Below are positions 49,385 through 64,000 of a stretch of DNA of 64,000 nt, piece by piece. The first letter of the stretch is position 1. Each line of letters starts with the position of its first letter. The stretch spans positions 62,001 to 126,000 of the forward strand of contig JADNRY010000101.1 in assembly GCA_015501585.1 (NCBI GenBank), read 5' to 3'. The stretch comes from Rhodocollybia butyracea. Lineage: Eukaryota > Basidiomycota > Agaricomycetes > Agaricales > Omphalotaceae. Both the position numbers and the translations under genes were made by a program. The notes beneath the pieces were generated by a model. The model did no database searches. It saw nothing but the letters and a program-made list of their open reading frames with translations, and was not told the DNA's origin.

Positions 49385-50467
49385 CTACGAGTAGATAACA
49401 GGGATATCTGGAAGGTCATTTTCAATATATGTCCCATCGATCCACTTATGTATCCGACGATCTAGTGCCCAATCCCTGACTTTATCAAAGTTTCTGCAAG
49501 AATGGATAATATCGCTATGTCCAACTACTTTTTCGATTTTGTCGTCCCACTGCCAGACGTTTACAGATATGTCTGCGCTACACCTGGAGATTTAAAAAAT
49601 GAGGATAAGTTATGCATATATGCACCAGCCATTTCAAGTAAGCGCTGGATGCGTGTGTGGAAGGGGAAGGCGAGGTAATAAAGTACTTACATGAGAGATT
49701 GGCGAATAGAATCAATGCAATGCCACGTATGGTCCATTCCCATGTCGGGATGGTCGCGATAGAGCTCGATGTTGAAGAACATGCGAAGATAATTCTATGG
49801 AAGATTGCATGTTCAAGACTGAAAAATAAAAGGCCAACACGTTACGCACTAAACAGTGAAGTTGATGAAAGACGTCGAGCTCTGCAAGATAATAACCAGG
49901 CTCGTGGGAGATGGGATAGGTTTTATTCGGAAGCAATACTGCTTGACTGTGAGGTATCTTGAACACGGTGTCTAGTACAAAGCATCAGTGAATCCGACAT
50001 GTGTAAAGTCAAGCCTGCCTTACGGTTATAAAGCTCTCCCCAAGCTCGATCTGCTTCTTTTCCTACACCTTGATAGGCTGTAAGACCGTCGCCATAGGTT
50101 GGTCTTCCAACAGTGAATGTCTTGACCTCAGATTGGAGCGCTTCTTGAGCCGGAGCTAGGTAGTATCATACTGTTCAGCCATCCCCGCACTGAGCCAACT
50201 GGTACAGTACTTACAATATAGAGTCTGTCCGTACGCATGCGCTTTCAACGTTTCGCATTGGAAACTCGTCGAGCTCGAGACTATTTGAGGACGTCTAAGA
50301 GCCAGCCAGCATAATGAAAATGTTTCTACAACGACAATGAGGAGAAGAACTGCTTCTCTCCAGCGGCTGCCATCGAGTAACTTTTTGGACGAGAACTTAT
50401 GGAGAAGTGGGTGTTCTTGCTCATCTTCCTCCTCAGCGACTGGGAGATAATTGCTCTTGGGAATCAT
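49385..50467 (-). CDS. UstYa-family (DUF3328) oxidase-like membrane protein
   Basis: Homologue of the UstYa family (PF11807), whose members catalyse oxidative cyclisation, cross-linking or halogenation of ribosomal peptides such as ustiloxin in fungi. Five exons (50467-50215, 50155-50024, 49971-49850, 49794-49691, 49577-49385) close in frame as 267 residues. A cytosolic acidic N-terminus is followed by one transmembrane helix (residues ~37-57). Both HxxHC motifs that define the active site are present: HQLHC at 164-168 and HTWHC at 191-195, the latter followed by IDSIRQSL. The C-terminus reads SVNVWQW then HKWIDGTY. No catalytic motif is missing. It is divergently transcribed from the repeat precursor gene at 51244, with 776 bp between start codons. 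That arrangement is the strongest hint of its job. Confidence 0.9.
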
Positions 50468-51243
50468 GCTGTACTGTTGGAGGGAAGCAAGTGATATCCA
50501 CTTTTATTGCCACCGTCACTGTTGTGTACTAGATCGCGGATTCGGAATAGAGCGTTCCGAAGTTCTAACTCCACCATCAATCAGTTGATTAACTCTCTAG
50601 TTCTCCGACAGATGATTGGGTGTGAGGGATCTGTTATACGTGCTTTCGTACTTTTGCAGTTCGGACAGACGACGTCTATTCATCTGTCATAGGGTGTCAG
50701 CTAAACACTTACTTACCCCGGTTTTTCTCCGTGAGACTTGAATGCTTTTACTGCGCTGTGAAGCTTGAAGCTCAAGCTCGGCTCACAAATCGAAATCAGC
50801 TTCGATAAGAACGAGTCTCAATATAGAATGTCAAAGCTGTATTGCTATAAGTAGTACCATAGAGATGAATAATTATTTCGGGGGATATTAACGATTATGA
50901 AACCTCGGGTATGTCTACTACGCCACATTTTACACTGACAAAGGACAATATGTTATCTGAAGCTTGAACCAGGGTAACTAAATTATGATCAAGTGCCATC
51001 TCCAGTTACTTACTGTAGAACCATCGTTTTTCGAGTTGACATACACAGTCAAGCTATCGGATTTTAAGTGACTGTGGACCGAAAGCGGCTTAAAGCGCAA
51101 CAGTCGGTTCCACTGATCAGAATCGACAAGATTGTCATAGTAAGGTGTGCCGCATATACATAAAGATATAAAGGAGTATTGTTTTTGTAAGTTTTCGAAA
51201 CACCTACTGTTACATCCTTTTCTCATCCCTCAGTAAAGTCAAC
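50468..51243. promoter_or_regulatory. Divergent promoter region between UstYa-like and precursor genes
   Basis: This holds no gene. It is the shared upstream region of the oxidase-like gene (-) and the small secreted precursor (+). A TATAAA lies at 51167-51172, 72 nt upstream of the precursor ATG. A shared bidirectional regulator site is plausible, but I could not identify one. Confidence 0.55.
51167..51172 (+). promoter_or_regulatory. TATA box of the repeat precursor gene
   Basis: TATAAA in the context GATATAAAGG, 72 nt before the start codon. The spacing leaves a leader of roughly 40 nt, typical of a strongly expressed small secreted protein. Confidence 0.5.
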
Positions 51244-51762
51244 ATGAAATTTACCTTTACTGCGCTTGCTACTCTCCTCAGCATCTCAGCTGTTCTTGCA
51301 GTACCGACTCTGGTGGTGAGTCCAATAACTTTTCTGTGCCTGTAGCACAACAGCACCGCCGACAAGGATTCTTATTCTAGACAAAGCGAGAAGTCGACCT
51401 GGATGTAGCGGACGGCAGTGCAACCACCATTTGGAGTACGTGATCACTGCCAACCGAAGGACCTCTTTCGCTAATCTCAACAACAGCGGTTAAACGAGGA
51501 GAAGTGGACATGGACGCAGCGGCTGCGAATGGCCCGGACACTTTCTGGGGTAAGGCTTCACTGCTAGAAAAATTGAAGTTGAGATATTTACTGACTTTGA
51601 CGACGGCAGCTAAACGAGCTGAATCTGGAGATCAATCTGGGGAGGTGGACACAGATGTGGTAGGTGCGAATGGTCCTGACTCTTGGTGGGGTAAGTATCT
51701 TCAGAACTCATCTCATTCACCAATACTCAACAAATTCCACTTTGACATACACTACAGCCTAA
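51244..51762 (+). CDS. Secreted Kex2-type repeat precursor peptide (candidate RiPP precursor)
   Basis: A 91-residue protein in five exons (51244-51315, 51381-51435, 51487-51549, 51610-51690, 51758-51762). Exon 1 encodes a signal peptide (residues 1-19, ending AVLA) plus VPTLV. Exons 2, 3 and 4 each encode one repeat that opens with Lys-Arg (26-27, 45-46, 65-66) and closes with Trp at 42, 63 and 90. Each repeat has an acidic spacer EVD(L/M/T)D, and repeats 2 and 3 then share ANGPD(T/S)(F/W)W. Lys-Arg is the Kex2 site, so three peptides ending IWTV, DTFWA and SWWA are expected. The layout matches fungal Kex2-processed repeat proteins, including dikaritin RiPP precursors. There is no C-terminal CaaX, so it is not a normal basidiomycete pheromone. 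Function unproven. Confidence 0.82.
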
Positions 51763-53131
51763 GAAAAAATTAGCAAAGAGCGAAGATAACAGGTGAAATG
51801 GACTGACATACATACTATGTATGATGTTCTTGTAGTAATGATATTGATCTTTTGGGTCTATTTCTCGAGTGATTGAGCTTTATTCGAGAATGGCGAGGAA
51901 CAGTGAAAAGCGATAATACAACGGCCGTGTGGGAGACAATGGATAATCACTGTCCCCAGCTTCTATAGTCCGTAGTTGGAACCCTCGGTTGCAGCGCGCG
52001 AAGAGAAGACCAAGATCGGACCACAACGAAGCAGGACCAACCAAGTAGAATCGAATTTAGCCTAAGACATTTCAGCATGTACAATTGAATCTGATATAAG
52101 AGACGAGAGACGCGGAGCTGTATGACGTGGAAAGGGGAATCGTGCATCAGCGTGGTGCGCATGCGACGTAAAATCATACAACCTTTACCTTCGTTCCAGT
52201 GTATTAAACACCTTACGAAGAACCGAATGCACTGTGTTATGGCTATGGAGTCTAAAACAATGAGCTTGGAGGATTCAAGAAAACACGCGACATGATACCC
52301 AACTTGATCAAGCTCAGGTGTTCTCAACAGGCGCCTTCATTTCATTTCTCCGATTCCAGGCCATCCATCACCACGCGTCATTAAAATATCAGCGTTGAAA
52401 CTGAGTGCTGAGAGTCGAGGTTCTCAATCCGAAAGAGACGGTTCACAAAATATCATTCGGCGTTTACAAAGTATTAAAACACACAAGAAAGGCGTAGACT
52501 ACAGAACCGCACTTCTTGGGGAACTATGAGGAAAAACTGGAAACACAGAGTCAGCGTACTTGAAAGAGCATAGATAAAAAAGTGAAATGGGGTATCAGTG
52601 TCAATTTTTTTCCTCAACGTGTAGATAGGTAGTCTAACATGCGTTTGACAAAGCTGTGAAGCGCATCATGGAAGGAAGAAACGAGAATGATTCGCTCACC
52701 AGTCTGTGGACGACGTAGTCGTGGTTTGAGTAAATTTTTCAGCGCTAATTTACTTGTATTGTTTCCGGCCGCATCACCGGTCAGACAAAGCTCCTGTTAT
52801 CTATCGATGATCTCCTCAACAAGCCTCGTGTTGACAGCAAGGCGGCTGTCTCATGTCGAAAAATGCGGCAATCGATCTCTGTGTACACTGTGGTTCTTCG
52901 TCGTCTTCAACACGTCTTTCTTCATTTCCAGGCTGCTTTCGATCGCTGTCTTTTCTGTATCTCTTCCGAGGTCCTCACCAACAGCGCAAGGCCGCTAGTG
53001 ACTAGTCACTCATTGCTCTGGTCGCTTACCATCTTTCCTATCTCGTCCCATCTCGGTGATCTCTTTGATTTTTAAACAGACAGCTCTTGGATCTTTTCTT
53101 TCTTCTCTAACACTAGTACACTTATTATTTC
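51763..53131. other. Intergenic, 1.4 kb
   Basis: The 3' flank of the precursor gene, then noncoding sequence. A minus-strand frame at 51947-52327 has no domain or start context. No second UstYa copy or peptidase is seen here. Confidence 0.5.
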
Positions 53132-53996
53132 ATGCCTCTGCCTAACCCCTCTTACAGTCGAAAGCCTACTAGGACTCTAGACAAGGGCTCTATAACCCCA
53201 AATACCCCAACACGCATCACGATACCCTCTTCGAGCATATATGCCCCTGCTGATTCTGAAAGATTACCGCCCTTTTCCTCATCGTCCAAGTCTGGCTCAC
53301 GTTCGCTATCACAAGAGGTCGATGATTCATCGCTGGAGGAATCATCATATGTGCCGCCCGACAACGGCTTAGATGATTTGTGGGAGACGTTGAGACACAA
53401 GAAGGAGCTGAAGATGGCCAAGGAGACTCCGAAAGTACAGTCTTTGCAGGAGCATCCATCAGTTGAAGAGGAAGAGTTCTCGCCTATCGAGGCACCCGAT
53501 GTCGAAGTTGCTGTGGGTTCTGGGGCTCAAGGGCCAGCTCTGAAAAGACAGAAATCCATGTACGTGAAAGCCATAAATCCATTGTCAGAATCTAAAATTT
53601 GGTTCATTCTTCAGAACTTCATTCCGCGAGTCTCCCGATGGTAGAATCATAGCCGCCTTTATAGAAATGCCAGGTGTACATAAACCAGATGTACATGTCA
53701 TCTACTCTCGCAATCGTCTGGTAATTTCATGGCAAACCATTGAGGTCTCAGAGTACGAGGAGAATGGCCGGGTCATACGAGATAGACTCATTCGTGACTG
53801 GCAGCGAGTTCATCCTCTGCCCGAGGGTACCAGGGTAAGTTCCTTGATATCACGTATTAGGTTCAAGTCATGCTTAACCGTTTCTATACAGTTTGAAGAA
53901 ATCAATGGAGTTATGAACGGTAAATTCCTGGTCTTGCGTTATCCGAACAGTCGATCGTTCAGAGTCGAGAATCGGCCCAGTTCAGTCGTTTCATAA
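53132..53996 (+). CDS. Alpha-crystallin/Hsp20-like domain protein
   Basis: Three exons (53132-53559, 53615-53834, 53892-53996) give 250 residues. The first ~140 residues are disordered and Ser/Pro/Glu-rich. The C-terminal ~100 residues form an Hsp20-like beta-sandwich: IIAAFIEMPGVHKPDVHVIY, NRLVISWQT, RDRLIRDWQRVHPLPEGTR and INGVMNGKFLVLRYPNSRSF. They follow the strand order of small heat-shock proteins, with the elements corresponding to the ELPGL and VxNGVLxV signatures. Agaricomycetes carry many such divergent sHSP-like proteins. Chaperone activity is not certain, because the usual C-terminal IxI motif is not visible. Confidence 0.72.
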
Positions 53997-54543: not shown

Positions 54544-55684
54544 TTAAGGATCTAACTCAATATCCCAGACAGGACTTGGATCTCGGGGAGGCCTATACGC
54601 CGAGTCGTTCTCCTTGGGACTAGTCGCTCCATCCAAAGGTCCTCCACCATCCCCAGTACCTTTATCTCCATTATCTCCATTATCCCCCGCCTGCATCAGC
54701 TCCAAAGTATTCGTAGCATGGTTCCGAAACGGCTTCTCGAATGCGTTTTTGATATTTCTTACTTTGACTTGACCGAACCCTGGTAGTTCAGAAAGCTGCT
54801 CAGGTTGGGCTTTGGCGACGTTGGCAAGGCTCTGAGAAAAAGAGTGAGTTTGCATATCAGTTTTCGTAAAGGACATACCCCAAATGAGTTTCTTAGTGTT
54901 TCCACGTCAGTCCTGTTTACTCTGCTGATACTGGTGAGGGAAGTGCGCAGCATGGAGGTGTAGTCTTTATCCACTCGTTCTTTGATCATGGTTGGCGGCT
55001 TGTGCTCGTATTGTTTGAAGATACCAAGATAGTGACCTGCCTCTTCGGACCTTGAAGAAAGCGTTCTTTGTTACGAAGCGAAGACAAGAATTCGAGTCGG
55101 AAGAGGCACGTACGAAAAAGCAACGATGACGGTGATGTTGTTAGTTAGACAAACCTATATAGAAGTAAAGATATATACGTGGCATTAAACAACCACTTGC
55201 TCACTTTGGTGAGTTCACGAATTGCATCTTTGTGTTCCGTCTGGCAGGTCAGTGCTTCAGCAACAAAAGACAACTCGATAATTGATGCTCACGATGTCAC
55301 ATAGTATCAGTAAGATACGAAGCGTATAACGGATCCCAAGTTTTTCAATACGCGTATGGATGTATTCCGGATGAAGCCGATGGTATTTCAGACTGTGTCG
55401 AGGTCAAAAGGTATCATGATACTTATAGAGACACGCACCTCAAGAATAAAACACCAGTAGTTCGACCAACTTGATAATCAGCAACGATGTCCCCGAATTC
55501 CTTTCCAACGTTACGGATGCACTCTAGGACTGGGTTACCGCGCTGCGAAAGGTGAAGGAATCGTTTCTATAATAATACTGGAGAGTTAGTGGCGTACCTG
55601 CAACGTGCTTACAATAATGTTGTTGCCAGAGCCAGGTATTACAGCAGGAGGAGCTGGTCGTTTGGAAGAAGAGGCCGAAGACAT
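54544..55684 (-). CDS. RAD10: ERCC1/RAD10 structure-specific endonuclease subunit
   Basis: Non-catalytic DNA-binding partner of XPF/Rad1 in nucleotide excision repair and single-strand annealing. The ATG is at 55684 and the stop at 54544. The central domain starts [20 protein letters not shown] and continues through [35 protein letters not shown] and [12 protein letters not shown]. It ends with the tandem helix-hairpin-helix ([20 protein letters not shown] then [15 protein letters not shown]). The C-terminus adds a Gly/Asp-rich tail of about 60 residues with [10 protein letters not shown] repeats and a PPRDPSP motif. At least five introns were placed. The gene is 82 bp from the methyltransferase pseudogene on the same strand. 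Confidence 0.93.
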
Positions 55685-55766: not shown

Positions 55767-56737
55767 CTACTTCCTCCTTGCAACAATAACTCTAGTCTTG
55801 TACGGATACTCAAACAATCCTGCGTCCTGATCGATCCACTTCTTATCCGCCTTGTTATCCCAATCTTCCTGACCTCCCCAATCAACTTCTCGAACTCTTC
55901 CTTCTTCTCCCTTTCCATAACTGCAATATAACTCTTACTTCTGACCCTCTCCACGATAGCGTCCACTGTCGTCGGAATAGTCCATTCGAATACATCTTCC
56001 GAAGGCTGTTCGAACAGCGTTGGATACCTGGGGCTCTTGGTTGCATCGAACGTAGCGCGCCAGAGTTCCAATCGGTATTGAGGCGACCCAGCCTCGTAAG
56101 CTTCGTACAAGGGCGTAGCTGGGCGACCCACGCGGCAGCGTCGGGGTCTTCGAGGTTCCATAAATACACGACGATTCCAGATGGTTTGAGAATCCGGCCA
56201 AACTCAACCGAGGCTGCGTCGTACGCAGGATCAGCCCAATGGTAGGCTTGAGCGATAACAATCATGTCTGCCCATCCTTCTTCGATTCCTGTATCTGTGA
56301 AACTGCCCTCTTTGATGGAGATTTTGCTTTTGATTTCTAGACATTAAACGTTAAGCATTACAGTGCGAAACTGAGAGGATTCGATTTACTGACCGTTTGC
56401 ATTCTGAAGCACAGTCTTTTCAAACTGGGCTCTCATTCCGGCGCTAGGTTCTACGGCTCGAATCTCGGCAATAGAGGAGGACCAATCTGGGTGGGCAAGA
56501 AGTGCACGAGTGAATATTCCTGTGCCAGCGCCGATTTCGACTATGTTGAAAGGCGAAGAGCGCTCTGTGGGGATGCTCTGACGAATATGAGCCAGGACAG
56601 AGGACTGGTAGGATGGACGTGCACTAGAATCGATAAGATTATTTCAGATTATATCTCAAGAATATGGGGCCACACCGATCATAAACCTCATTTGTTCCTT
56701 CAGCAAAACCTTGCTGTGCAAGTGAGTGAACGGCCAT
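55767..56737 (-). pseudogene. Class I SAM methyltransferase, frameshifted
   Basis: Related to the small-molecule methyltransferases of the yeast CRG1/TMT1 type. The start MAVHSLAQQGFAEGTNE is followed after an intron by RPSYQSSVLAHIRQSI. The SAM-binding motif I is VEIGAGTGIFTRALL, then EIRAVEPSAGM, IVIAQAYHWAD and YLWNLEDPDAAAW. Two frame jumps with no possible intron break it: near 56120 (between WVAQL and YEAYEAGSPQYRLELW) and near 55885 (between EEFEKLIG and WGGQEDWDNK). The far C-terminus FEYPYKTRVIVARRK still matches the family. It is either a young pseudogene or carries two indel errors in the sequence. The fold assignment is firm, the substrate unknown. Confidence 0.75.
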
Positions 56738-62919: not shown

Positions 62920-63033
62920 TGGTAGCCTGTACTGAATTAACGAAGCTTCTCTACTGCGCACAAGACCTCGGAACACACTCATTTCACTCTCTCACACTCA
63001 TTCATTCACCTACACATCCCATACATTCGTCCA

Positions 63034-64000
63034 CATGTCCCTACATCTGCCACATCATCAGATTCCATTCAAATCCCTACCCTTACCTACGGGACCTATT
63101 CTCGATGGGTTGGCCCTATTTCTGGCAAGCTCCAGAGGGCTATGGTCTGGAGATTCTGCAGTGGAGAGATGTCTGTCTATCCTAAACCTTCCGATCCTTG
63201 TCCATTGCCTAATGACGCCTCTGCCGTTGACCGGGCTGCTGTTAGACGAGATCACAGGGAGGATATGCGATCCTACGAGGAATCAATTACTCGTAATGAC
63301 AAGGCTATTGGGATCATCAAAGAGCACCTTGCGCCGGAACAGCTTCTTCTCATTGAAAAGCTCACATCCGCCAAGGATGTCTGGACTAAGCTTAAGGAAG
63401 CTCATGCTGGCACCACCGCTGGTCTTGAAGCCTTCTATATCAAGCGTGGTATGATGGATAAACGGTATGAACATGGTGATAACATGCAGGATCACGTTAA
63501 CTTCTATGCTCTCGAGAACAAGAAGCTCTCTGACACTGATGCTTTTGGAGACCAGTTCCTCGCAGAACTTATGCTCACTTCTCTTCCTCGTACTGTCAAT
63601 GACTCTCCTAACACTTGGGAGACGTTTACCATCGTCACTCTTGCTGCTGTTACTGAAACAAACAAGCTCACCTCTTCTTTTGTCACCTCCCGCCTCATTG
63701 CGGAGTATCGACGTCTCACTTCTGGTGATGATTCTTCCGAGGCGGCTAACGCTGCCGCTGTTAGAGGGAAATCTAAACCAAAGAAGAAACTCAAGAAAGG
63801 TCCGCTCTGTTCCTACTGTCACAAAGGTCCTCACCTTGTCGAAGACTGTAACCACAAGAAGCGAGATGAGGAAGCATCCCGCCGCACTGCGTCCGCTCCT
63901 AGAAGCAGTGGAGATCTAGTAGGAAGCCTACTGCCGCTGCCGCCCAACACTCTGATAGCAATAGCTCATCGGATGAGGAGGTCAGTGCAAAAGTCGCTTC
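63034..64000 (+). CDS. Copia gag (capsid-like, UBN2 type), partial
   Basis: The gag frame reads SIQIPTLTYGTYSRW, AKDVWTKLKEAH, AFYIKRGMMDKRYEHGDNMQ and LMLTSLPRTVNDS, and it has a CCHC zinc knuckle C-x2-C-x4-H-x4-C (about 63808-63849). This is the UBN2-type capsid and nucleocapsid of copia elements. The only nearby ATG (63035) is one frame off, and after about 63905 the Ser/Asp-rich continuation (DSNSSSDEE) is in a different frame, so two indels are likely. The C-terminus lies outside the window. Confidence 0.75.

Follow-up and report, generated by a model that had tools for sequence, protein, structure and literature searches.

Among described ribosomal-peptide systems of the UstYa class, the asperipin-2a cluster of Aspergillus flavus comprises aprA, aprY, aprT and aprR, with one DUF3328 protein and no tyrosinase among the genes listed (PMC6514808), and the ustiloxin B cluster of the same species carries ustA, ustYa, ustYb and ustQ. 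The older five-gene definition of dikaritins by Ding et al., as reported in PMC12048977, names a tyrosinase, a methyltransferase, multiple DUF3328 proteins and a transporter or peptidase; functional clusters short of some of these genes were found later (PMC12048977). For Basidiomycota, a survey of Kex2-processed repeat precursors (KEPs; Umemura 2020) reported a DUF3328 gene within 15 genes of 103 out of 1,680 KEPs (6.1%), and a UstYa-family neighbour for 1,647 of 5,372 ascomycete KEPs (30.1%), and suggested that cyclisation perhaps hardly occurs in Basidiomycota (PMC7329392). Here we analyse a divergent pair formed by a UstYa-family gene and a repeat-precursor gene in a window of 64,000 nucleotides, bases 62001-126000 of contig C14, from the 95.6-Mb genome (1,381 contigs) of Rhodocollybia butyracea, an omphalotaceous agaric (Agaricales) whose public proteins match both genes.

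Judged by its sequence, the locus is real and very probably functional; its kind is known, and its architecture is a variant that helps to keep it and its siblings hidden. We put at roughly 70% the probability that it is a minimal dikaritin-type (UstYa-class) ribosomal-peptide cassette, with a precursor that would be cut by Kex2 and oxidised by UstYa. Current use takes the DUF3328 protein as the class-defining enzyme of dikaritins (PMC12048977), and here the KEP-type precursor gene and the UstYa-family gene lie 776 bp apart in divergent orientation, a spacing already given in the initial annotation and confirmed by the gene-model coordinates; the older five-gene definition does not cover the locus. 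To call this pair the exact minimal core of the known pathways, as had been done, was too strong with regard to ustiloxin, the cyclisation of which also needs the tyrosinase UstQ, whereas asperipin-2a stands as an apt model (PMC6514808). Like the window locus, the asperipin-2a cluster combines a precursor gene with a single DUF3328/UstYa homologue (PMC6514808), C14 having a single UstYa match in an exon-level profile search of the genome, but it belongs to an ascomycete, includes transporter and reductase genes and has a core, FYYTGY, with Tyr ethers, whereas the window units contain no Tyr. The ustiloxin B system resembles the locus in the signal-peptide-like N-terminus, the cores flanked by Lys-Arg (KR) and the UstYa family (PMC6514808), and differs in its 16-fold YAIG repeats, two UstY proteins and tyrosinase. 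The basidiomycete KEPs with a DUF3328 neighbour, as summarised in PMC7329392, share with the window a repeat precursor in the neighbourhood of a UstYa-family gene in mushrooms and, in some cases, Trp-containing cores.

The enzyme and the intergenic stretch have the following features.

49385..50467, minus strand: UstYa-family gene, 269 amino acids, BDP27DRAFT_1298076 (spliced model, stop codon 49387-49385; Pfam)
50297..50368, minus strand: predicted membrane helix, residues 34-57 (AlphaFold2; predicted local distance difference test, pLDDT, of 75, 96 and 85 over residues 31-60)
49853..49867, minus strand: first HxxHC motif, HQLHC, residues 164-168 (H164, H167 and C168 invariant in the alignment)
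49717..49731, minus strand: second HxxHC motif, HTWHC, residues 191-195 (H191, H194 and C195 invariant in the alignment)
50468..51243, no strand: intergenic stretch between both start codons, candidate shared promoter (776 bp, gene-model coordinates)

The gene has five exons (50467-50215, 50155-50024, 49971-49850, 49794-49691 and 49583-49385), with all introns of the GT-AG type, and its product is identical over its length to the public R. butyracea protein BDP27DRAFT_1298076. The match to Pfam UstYa/DUF3328 (PF11807) exceeds the curated cut-off (2.6e-40; 139.1 bits against 25). Of the initially annotated 267-residue UstYa protein with two HxxHC motifs and one helix, the family, the motifs and the predicted helix hold and only the length changes, to 269. 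When the window's protein was aligned with 61 sequences taken from the best 120 of 273 homologues, 22 columns were invariant across all 62, including both motifs (H164, H167, C168, H191, H194 and C195) as well as C205, H231 and C233. The AlphaFold2 model (mean pLDDT 78) contains a single long N-terminal helix, at 34-57, and the HxxHC motifs fall on two others, at 161-176 and 189-204. Sequence search of the PDB yielded no solved structure at E <= 1, none of the 78 matches of a fold search with the model reached E <= 0.001, and no relative of UstYa was found in the viral and prokaryote contigs searched.

The precursor gene is laid out as follows.

51244..51762, plus strand: precursor gene, 91 amino acids, five exons, one repeat unit per exon (spliced model; partly matched by public model P0001)
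51244..51315, plus strand: exon 1, putative signal peptide and start of the leader, MKFTFTALATLLSISAVLAVPTLV (hydropathy peak 2.63)
51384..51389, plus strand: first KR (Kex2-type) site (translation)
51390..51491, plus strand: unit 1, EVDLDVADGSATTIWTV, split by intron 51436-51486 (translation)
51492..51497, plus strand: second KR site (translation)
51498..51611, plus strand: unit 2, GEVDMDAAAANGPDTFWA, split by intron 51550-51609 (translation)
51612..51617, plus strand: third KR site (translation)
51618..51759, plus strand: unit 3, AESGDQSGEVDTDVVGANGPDSWWA, split by intron 51691-51757, stop codon 51760-51762 (translation)

Its exons (51244-51315, 51381-51435, 51487-51549, 51610-51690 and 51758-51762) encode, after the hydrophobic N-terminus, the sequence VPTLVT-KR-EVDLDVADGSATTIWTV-KR-GEVDMDAAAANGPDTFWA-KR-AESGDQSGEVDTDVVGANGPDSWWA. 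The 91 residues, three KR pairs and three units initially described are all present, except that the third unit runs up to the stop codon and lacks a closing KR. Beyond residue 19, no Lys or Arg, of which there are three each, lies outside a KR pair, and none of 100,000 shuffles reached three such pairs. Every unit contains Trp and none contains Tyr. Units 2 and 3 have V-D-x-D...A-N-G-P-D-x-x-W in common, together with the exon end, TGGG before GTAAG, found in exons 3 and 4, while exon 2 ends in TGGA before GTACG and unit 1 is only loosely similar to the other two.

The public model truncates the window precursor: P0001 follows it over residues 1-80, after which splicing at an upstream donor (GTAGGT, 51660-51665) removes the last 11 residues, VGANGPDSWWA. 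Taken at face value, P0001 would make the product a small secreted protein in which two KR units are incidental and the three-unit model a splice artefact, and the modest repeat score of the precursor (49 in the scan described below) agrees with that. However, the exon end at the later donor (GTAAGT, 51691) matches that of unit 2, the retained piece repeats ANGPDxxW, and the exon-per-unit plan is also found in precursors on C1160, C431, C517 and C427, which makes an artefact very improbable. The precursor is present as one copy in the assembly, and no second copy of window positions 51230-51780 was found there, though three other loci have haplotigs; the single copy would reflect either presence/absence between nuclei or a collapsed allele. 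A search of 5.8 billion proteins, limited to those of similar length with exact 5-residue words in common, returned 13 candidates for the precursor and 5,916 for a profile of the window, C1160 and C431 precursors, with the window's own protein as the only match in each case; for the C1160 and C431 precursors there was no recognisable public protein within these limits.

PF11807 gave 18 exon-level matches in the genome, a lower bound, and spliced models define ten non-allelic UstYa genes, on C14, C1160, C431, C517, C223 and C427 and two each on C827 and C1161, the models of both C827 genes, both C1161 genes and the C427 gene being partial. Copies on C305, C921 (two genes) and C509 were taken to be haplotigs and excluded from this count, based on precursor DNA identity for C509 (95%) and C305 (100%) and on shared order, repeats and similar match scores for C921. 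Six of the ten genes, the window's included, are accompanied at 0.6-1.4 kb by a dibasic-repeat precursor with a putative signal peptide, all distances being measured from the enzyme model; four of these six precursors are divergent from the enzyme gene and five are built with one exon per unit. The pairing proposed for an Agaricomycete is supported, and it recurs at five of the nine other UstYa genes. For Pleurotus, 16 UstYa-like genes are mentioned in a paper on mushroom development (PMC8893723).

The C1160 precursor is likewise Trp-containing, with KR repeats, and divergent from its UstYa gene: MKFLAIVLVAVVAVSAVGPVRR is followed by GTDMDKVAAPGGEVWIKR, GADFDEAAGPSDQTWNKR, GAGFDDGPSDSSTKSKR and GVDTDKEANPGGDIWNKR, each in its own exon, and the two genes lie head-to-head at 612 bp. 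An extra copy of the second unit has no AG acceptor ahead of it. The window and C1160 enzymes group in one Agaricales clade in a quick tree search (Shimodaira-Hasegawa-like approximate likelihood ratio test, 99), which makes a shared cassette plausible, not proven; the UstYa clade of this tree takes in Armillaria, Guyanagaster, Gymnopilus, Phlegmacium, Cyathus, Coprinopsis, Schizophyllum and Flagelloscypha. The tree used 37 of 120 listed homologues and omitted the C305, C921 and C509 copies, and the placement of the C827, C1161 and C427 enzymes is unsure, as their rows fill less than half of the columns. The haplotig of this locus on C305 (L020/L004) is identical to C1160 over 681 bases of the precursor region, but in the UstYa gene the stretch covering the second HxxHC motif reads differently, and this copy looks disrupted.

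On C431, one DVNDGAANPDRAFPGWN and four SSDVDDAFPGWN units, one per exon, lie on the same strand as the UstYa gene at 787 bp, and near-identical blocks of ~105 bp, each an exon plus an intron, stand in tandem (L015:1356-1711), so that repeat number appears to grow through joint copying of exon and intron. The C517 precursor spreads SPDIFAKKAWEAE-KR units over eight exons, with one intron modelled as GC-AG, head-to-head with its UstYa gene at 1,068 bp. The precursor gene on C427 (L032:6830-8294; allele L034 on C509) encodes 240 amino acids in 15 exons on the same strand as UstYa, at 1,352 bp, and 13 of these exons each hold an identical DRKGYDIT core, which has the Y-x-I spacing of ustiloxin YAIG that the window core lacks. 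All seven variable sites of these cores are third codon positions, and DNA identity between copies is 91% for the core against 66% for 12 introns, and the peptide thus looks selected. The C1161 precursor (L027:1277-1941) has Arg-Arg (RR)-bounded units of the LTSLDDF type in one exon, head-to-head with UstYa at 1,182 bp. These LTSLDDF-RR repeats, 17 amino acids long and Phe-ended, occur at C1161 and at L024:7980-8420 on C921. Their Phe-ended cores recall victorin.

The association was assessed with a dibasic-repeat scan of 26 loci plus the window (316 kb, or 311 kb once merged; pair score >= 45, same-frame overlaps excluded), which picked up the other five loci, at scores of 75-107, together with their haplotigs, the window precursor (49, from one pair) and two further sites. 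Without C14 and the haplotigs, 165 kb remain, and all five clusters fall within the 59 kb lying no more than 3 kb from UstYa genes, with none in the other 106 kb (chance ~0.006, 0.358^5); the background of this estimate is these 106 kb of scanned sequence more than 3 kb from UstYa genes. A chance origin of the UstYa-precursor pairing is unlikely. This result bears directly on the possibility that the window UstYa works in some other pathway, non-ribosomal or otherwise, with the precursor standing alongside by chance. DUF3328 proteins do hydroxylate or chlorinate in cyclochlorotine clusters (PMC12048977), and several homologues among the matches listed are named 'Cyclochlorotine biosynthesis protein'. 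Yet KEP adjacency recurs at the other UstYa genes, and a Pfam search of all 47 open reading frames (ORFs) of at least 110 amino acids at 36.8-64 kb of the window found no synthetase, peptidase or transporter family, though intron-split exons could escape it, and we consider this explanation quite improbable.

Several results weigh against a minimal UstYa cassette. The scan found no repeat precursor for the UstYa gene on C223 or for both on C827, three of the ten, and a fourth gene (C1161b) lies 6.9 kb from a repeat precursor; conversely, precursor paralogues with DSKGYDIT/DSKGYGIT units and the C427 signal peptide, at 81.3 kb of C1161 (L040:399-860) and on C24 (L041), have no UstYa match nearby. 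The window precursor's score of 49 is equalled by a chance pair that lies 21 kb from the UstYa gene on C14, so that the scan alone would not have singled this precursor out; a score of 111 went to a 174-bp DNA repeat present in two copies on haplotig C921, at 4.8 kb from UstYa. In a common permutation test, for which the third window unit was cut to its last 18 residues, the window and C1160 units gave p = 0.016 as one of five comparisons, but the signal from their best unit pair was weak (0.06, and 0.10 when Trp was kept fixed). In that permutation test the C427 units, which look unrelated, reached 0.054, and similarity to the C431 (0.19) and C517 (0.59) units was not significant. Besides UstYa, no gene is common to the window and C1160 regions at 1e-6. 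According to the surveys, UstYa-linked KEPs are not enriched in Trp (PMC7329392), and the linear, Trp-ended peptides SGTGEASAADW and SGVAADW were detected in fruiting bodies of Lentinula and Pleurotus (PMC9769878). Homology of all four Trp-type precursors was considered and is unsupported, with some signal only for C1160 and none for C431 and C517.

These linear peptides point to another reading, that of an ordinary agaricomycete KEP: Kex2 and Kex1 would release linear signalling peptides from the window precursor, and the neighbouring UstYa would serve another substrate. As described for such KEPs (L. edodes KEP 2599 and others), they share with the window precursor, going by what its sequence predicts, secretion, Kex2-cut repeats and a Trp near the C-terminus; a linear QYKAPSW was obtained from a Coprinopsis KEP expressed in Pichia, and R. 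butyracea itself has a homologue of the shiitake peptide SGTGEASAADW (PMC9769878). It also fits that, for most of the other UstYa-linked units, homology with the window units is not significant. Unlike the linear KEPs, which end in Trp, the window units have one or two further residues between Trp and the KR or stop. Matches to SGTGEASAADW, which served as a negative control, were found on C495 (448277-448672; up to 88% identity, 162-residue open frame) and C939 (92244-92420; 69% identity, 95-residue open frame), in both cases in a single open frame on a contig without a UstYa match, whereas the window type is built with one exon per unit and adjacent to UstYa, as at C1160. Together with the improbability that chance placed precursors beside five of nine other UstYa genes, this makes the linear reading, in our view, rather unlikely, though still a serious alternative.

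In the preferred reading as a Kex2-cut and UstYa-oxidised cassette, the precursor would enter the secretory pathway at the endoplasmic reticulum via its signal peptide; Kex2, for which a gene with a Kex2-type P-domain is present in the genome, would cleave after every KR, and Kex1 would trim the basic residues, as in known families, leaving peptides predicted to end in ...IWTV, ...DTFWA and ...SWWA. By analogy with ustiloxin and asperipin as outlined in PMC6514808 and PMC9769878, the membrane-anchored UstYa, with its two-HxxHC domain presumably lumenal, would then oxidise these peptides, and a side chain near Trp would probably be cross-linked or otherwise oxidised. We infer that the window enzyme acts on the window precursor and that Trp is the modification site; Trp or a neighbouring residue is the likeliest candidate because Trp is the aromatic residue of every unit and stands one or two residues before the end. 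Cross-link, hydroxylation and desaturation are not separable by sequence alone. Two tyrosinase matches were found in the genome, on C805 and C179, contigs without a UstYa match, and the asperipin-like one-enzyme scheme accordingly fits better than that of ustiloxin. To our knowledge, a Trp-centred oxidative link would be a substrate without precedent for a characterised UstYa protein.

In Basidiomycota, KEP-UstYa pairs are already known from the 103 cases noted above (PMC7329392), and the initial statement that nearly all examples are from ascomycetes needs trimming to that extent; new here are the exon-per-core architecture and the density of such pairs in one mushroom. With each core in its own exon, such genes can be hidden from protein-based surveys. 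The survey of Umemura 2020 mined annotated proteins under a rule of at least three tandem dibasic-bounded repeats of at least 8 amino acids (PMC7329392), and its main text contains the words 'exon' and 'intron' zero times; one of its KEP types, P-3, from Galerina, Psilocybe, Coprinellus and two ascomycete genera, combines Trp with Pro (PMC7329392). Vogt 2022, which describes linear KEP peptides of agarics, was based on a predicted proteome, and UstY or DUF3328 appears zero times in its main text (PMC9769878). We found no description of exon-per-repeat precursors in the accessible portions of the open literature on them or on basidiomycete UstYa proteins, including Le Marquer 2019 (PMC6339444) and Ford 2022 (PMC9233826). 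The exon-per-core plan might also bear on the UstYa clusters without a recognisable repeated precursor reported in a 2025 lichen study (PMC12048977). We tentatively raise the possibility that UstYa-modified ribosomal peptides encoded with one exon per core form a large class in mushrooms, most of it unannotated, and that the window enzyme makes a Trp-centred oxidative link. If so, annotation-based surveys would undercount the class, which would explain why so few UstYa-linked KEPs have been reported from Basidiomycota, and other copies in R. butyracea would act on Y-x-I and Phe-ended cores. The six UstYa-adjacent precursors of this single mushroom make the low survey figure testable at the DNA level and provide defined candidate substrate-enzyme pairs, with Trp, Y-x-I and Phe cores, on which the capabilities of UstYa oxidases could be explored.

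Around the pair, the initial annotation had reported no adjacent methyltransferase, peptidase or tyrosinase, which holds for the peptidase (0 of the 47 ORFs) and for tyrosinase (on other contigs only) and calls for qualification as to the methyltransferase, since methyltransferase-like pieces lie ~4 kb from the precursor. They belong to a methyltransferase-like gene on the minus strand (55767-56737; pieces 56389-56643 and 55885-56343), with matches to Methyltransf_28 (4e-4) and Methyltransf_11 (9e-4) that are both under the cut-off, and its reading frame changes inside the gene in the assembly. Between it and the precursor lies an Hsp20-like ORF (53577-53993; 20.4 bits against a cut-off of 20.8), and a Rad10/Ercc1 piece is found at 55426-55566 (Pfam, 3.1e-10). 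Given the frame change, the distance, the DNA-repair neighbour and the absence of a counterpart in the other UstYa regions compared, the methyltransferase-like gene was not counted in the cassette, of which it may nevertheless be a member. When ORFs of at least 50 amino acids from nine UstYa regions were compared at 1e-6, only UstYa was common with the window's region. A hydrophobic, multi-pass-looking family stands beside three UstYa loci, on C517 (L018:7834-8784), C827 (C827b; L030:7532-8662) and C1161 (L026:5462-6479); it has eight matches in the genome search and no counterpart in the window's region, and may be a recurrent cluster partner. A Copia-type gag ORF lies at the end of the window (62941-63999; 1.7e-15).

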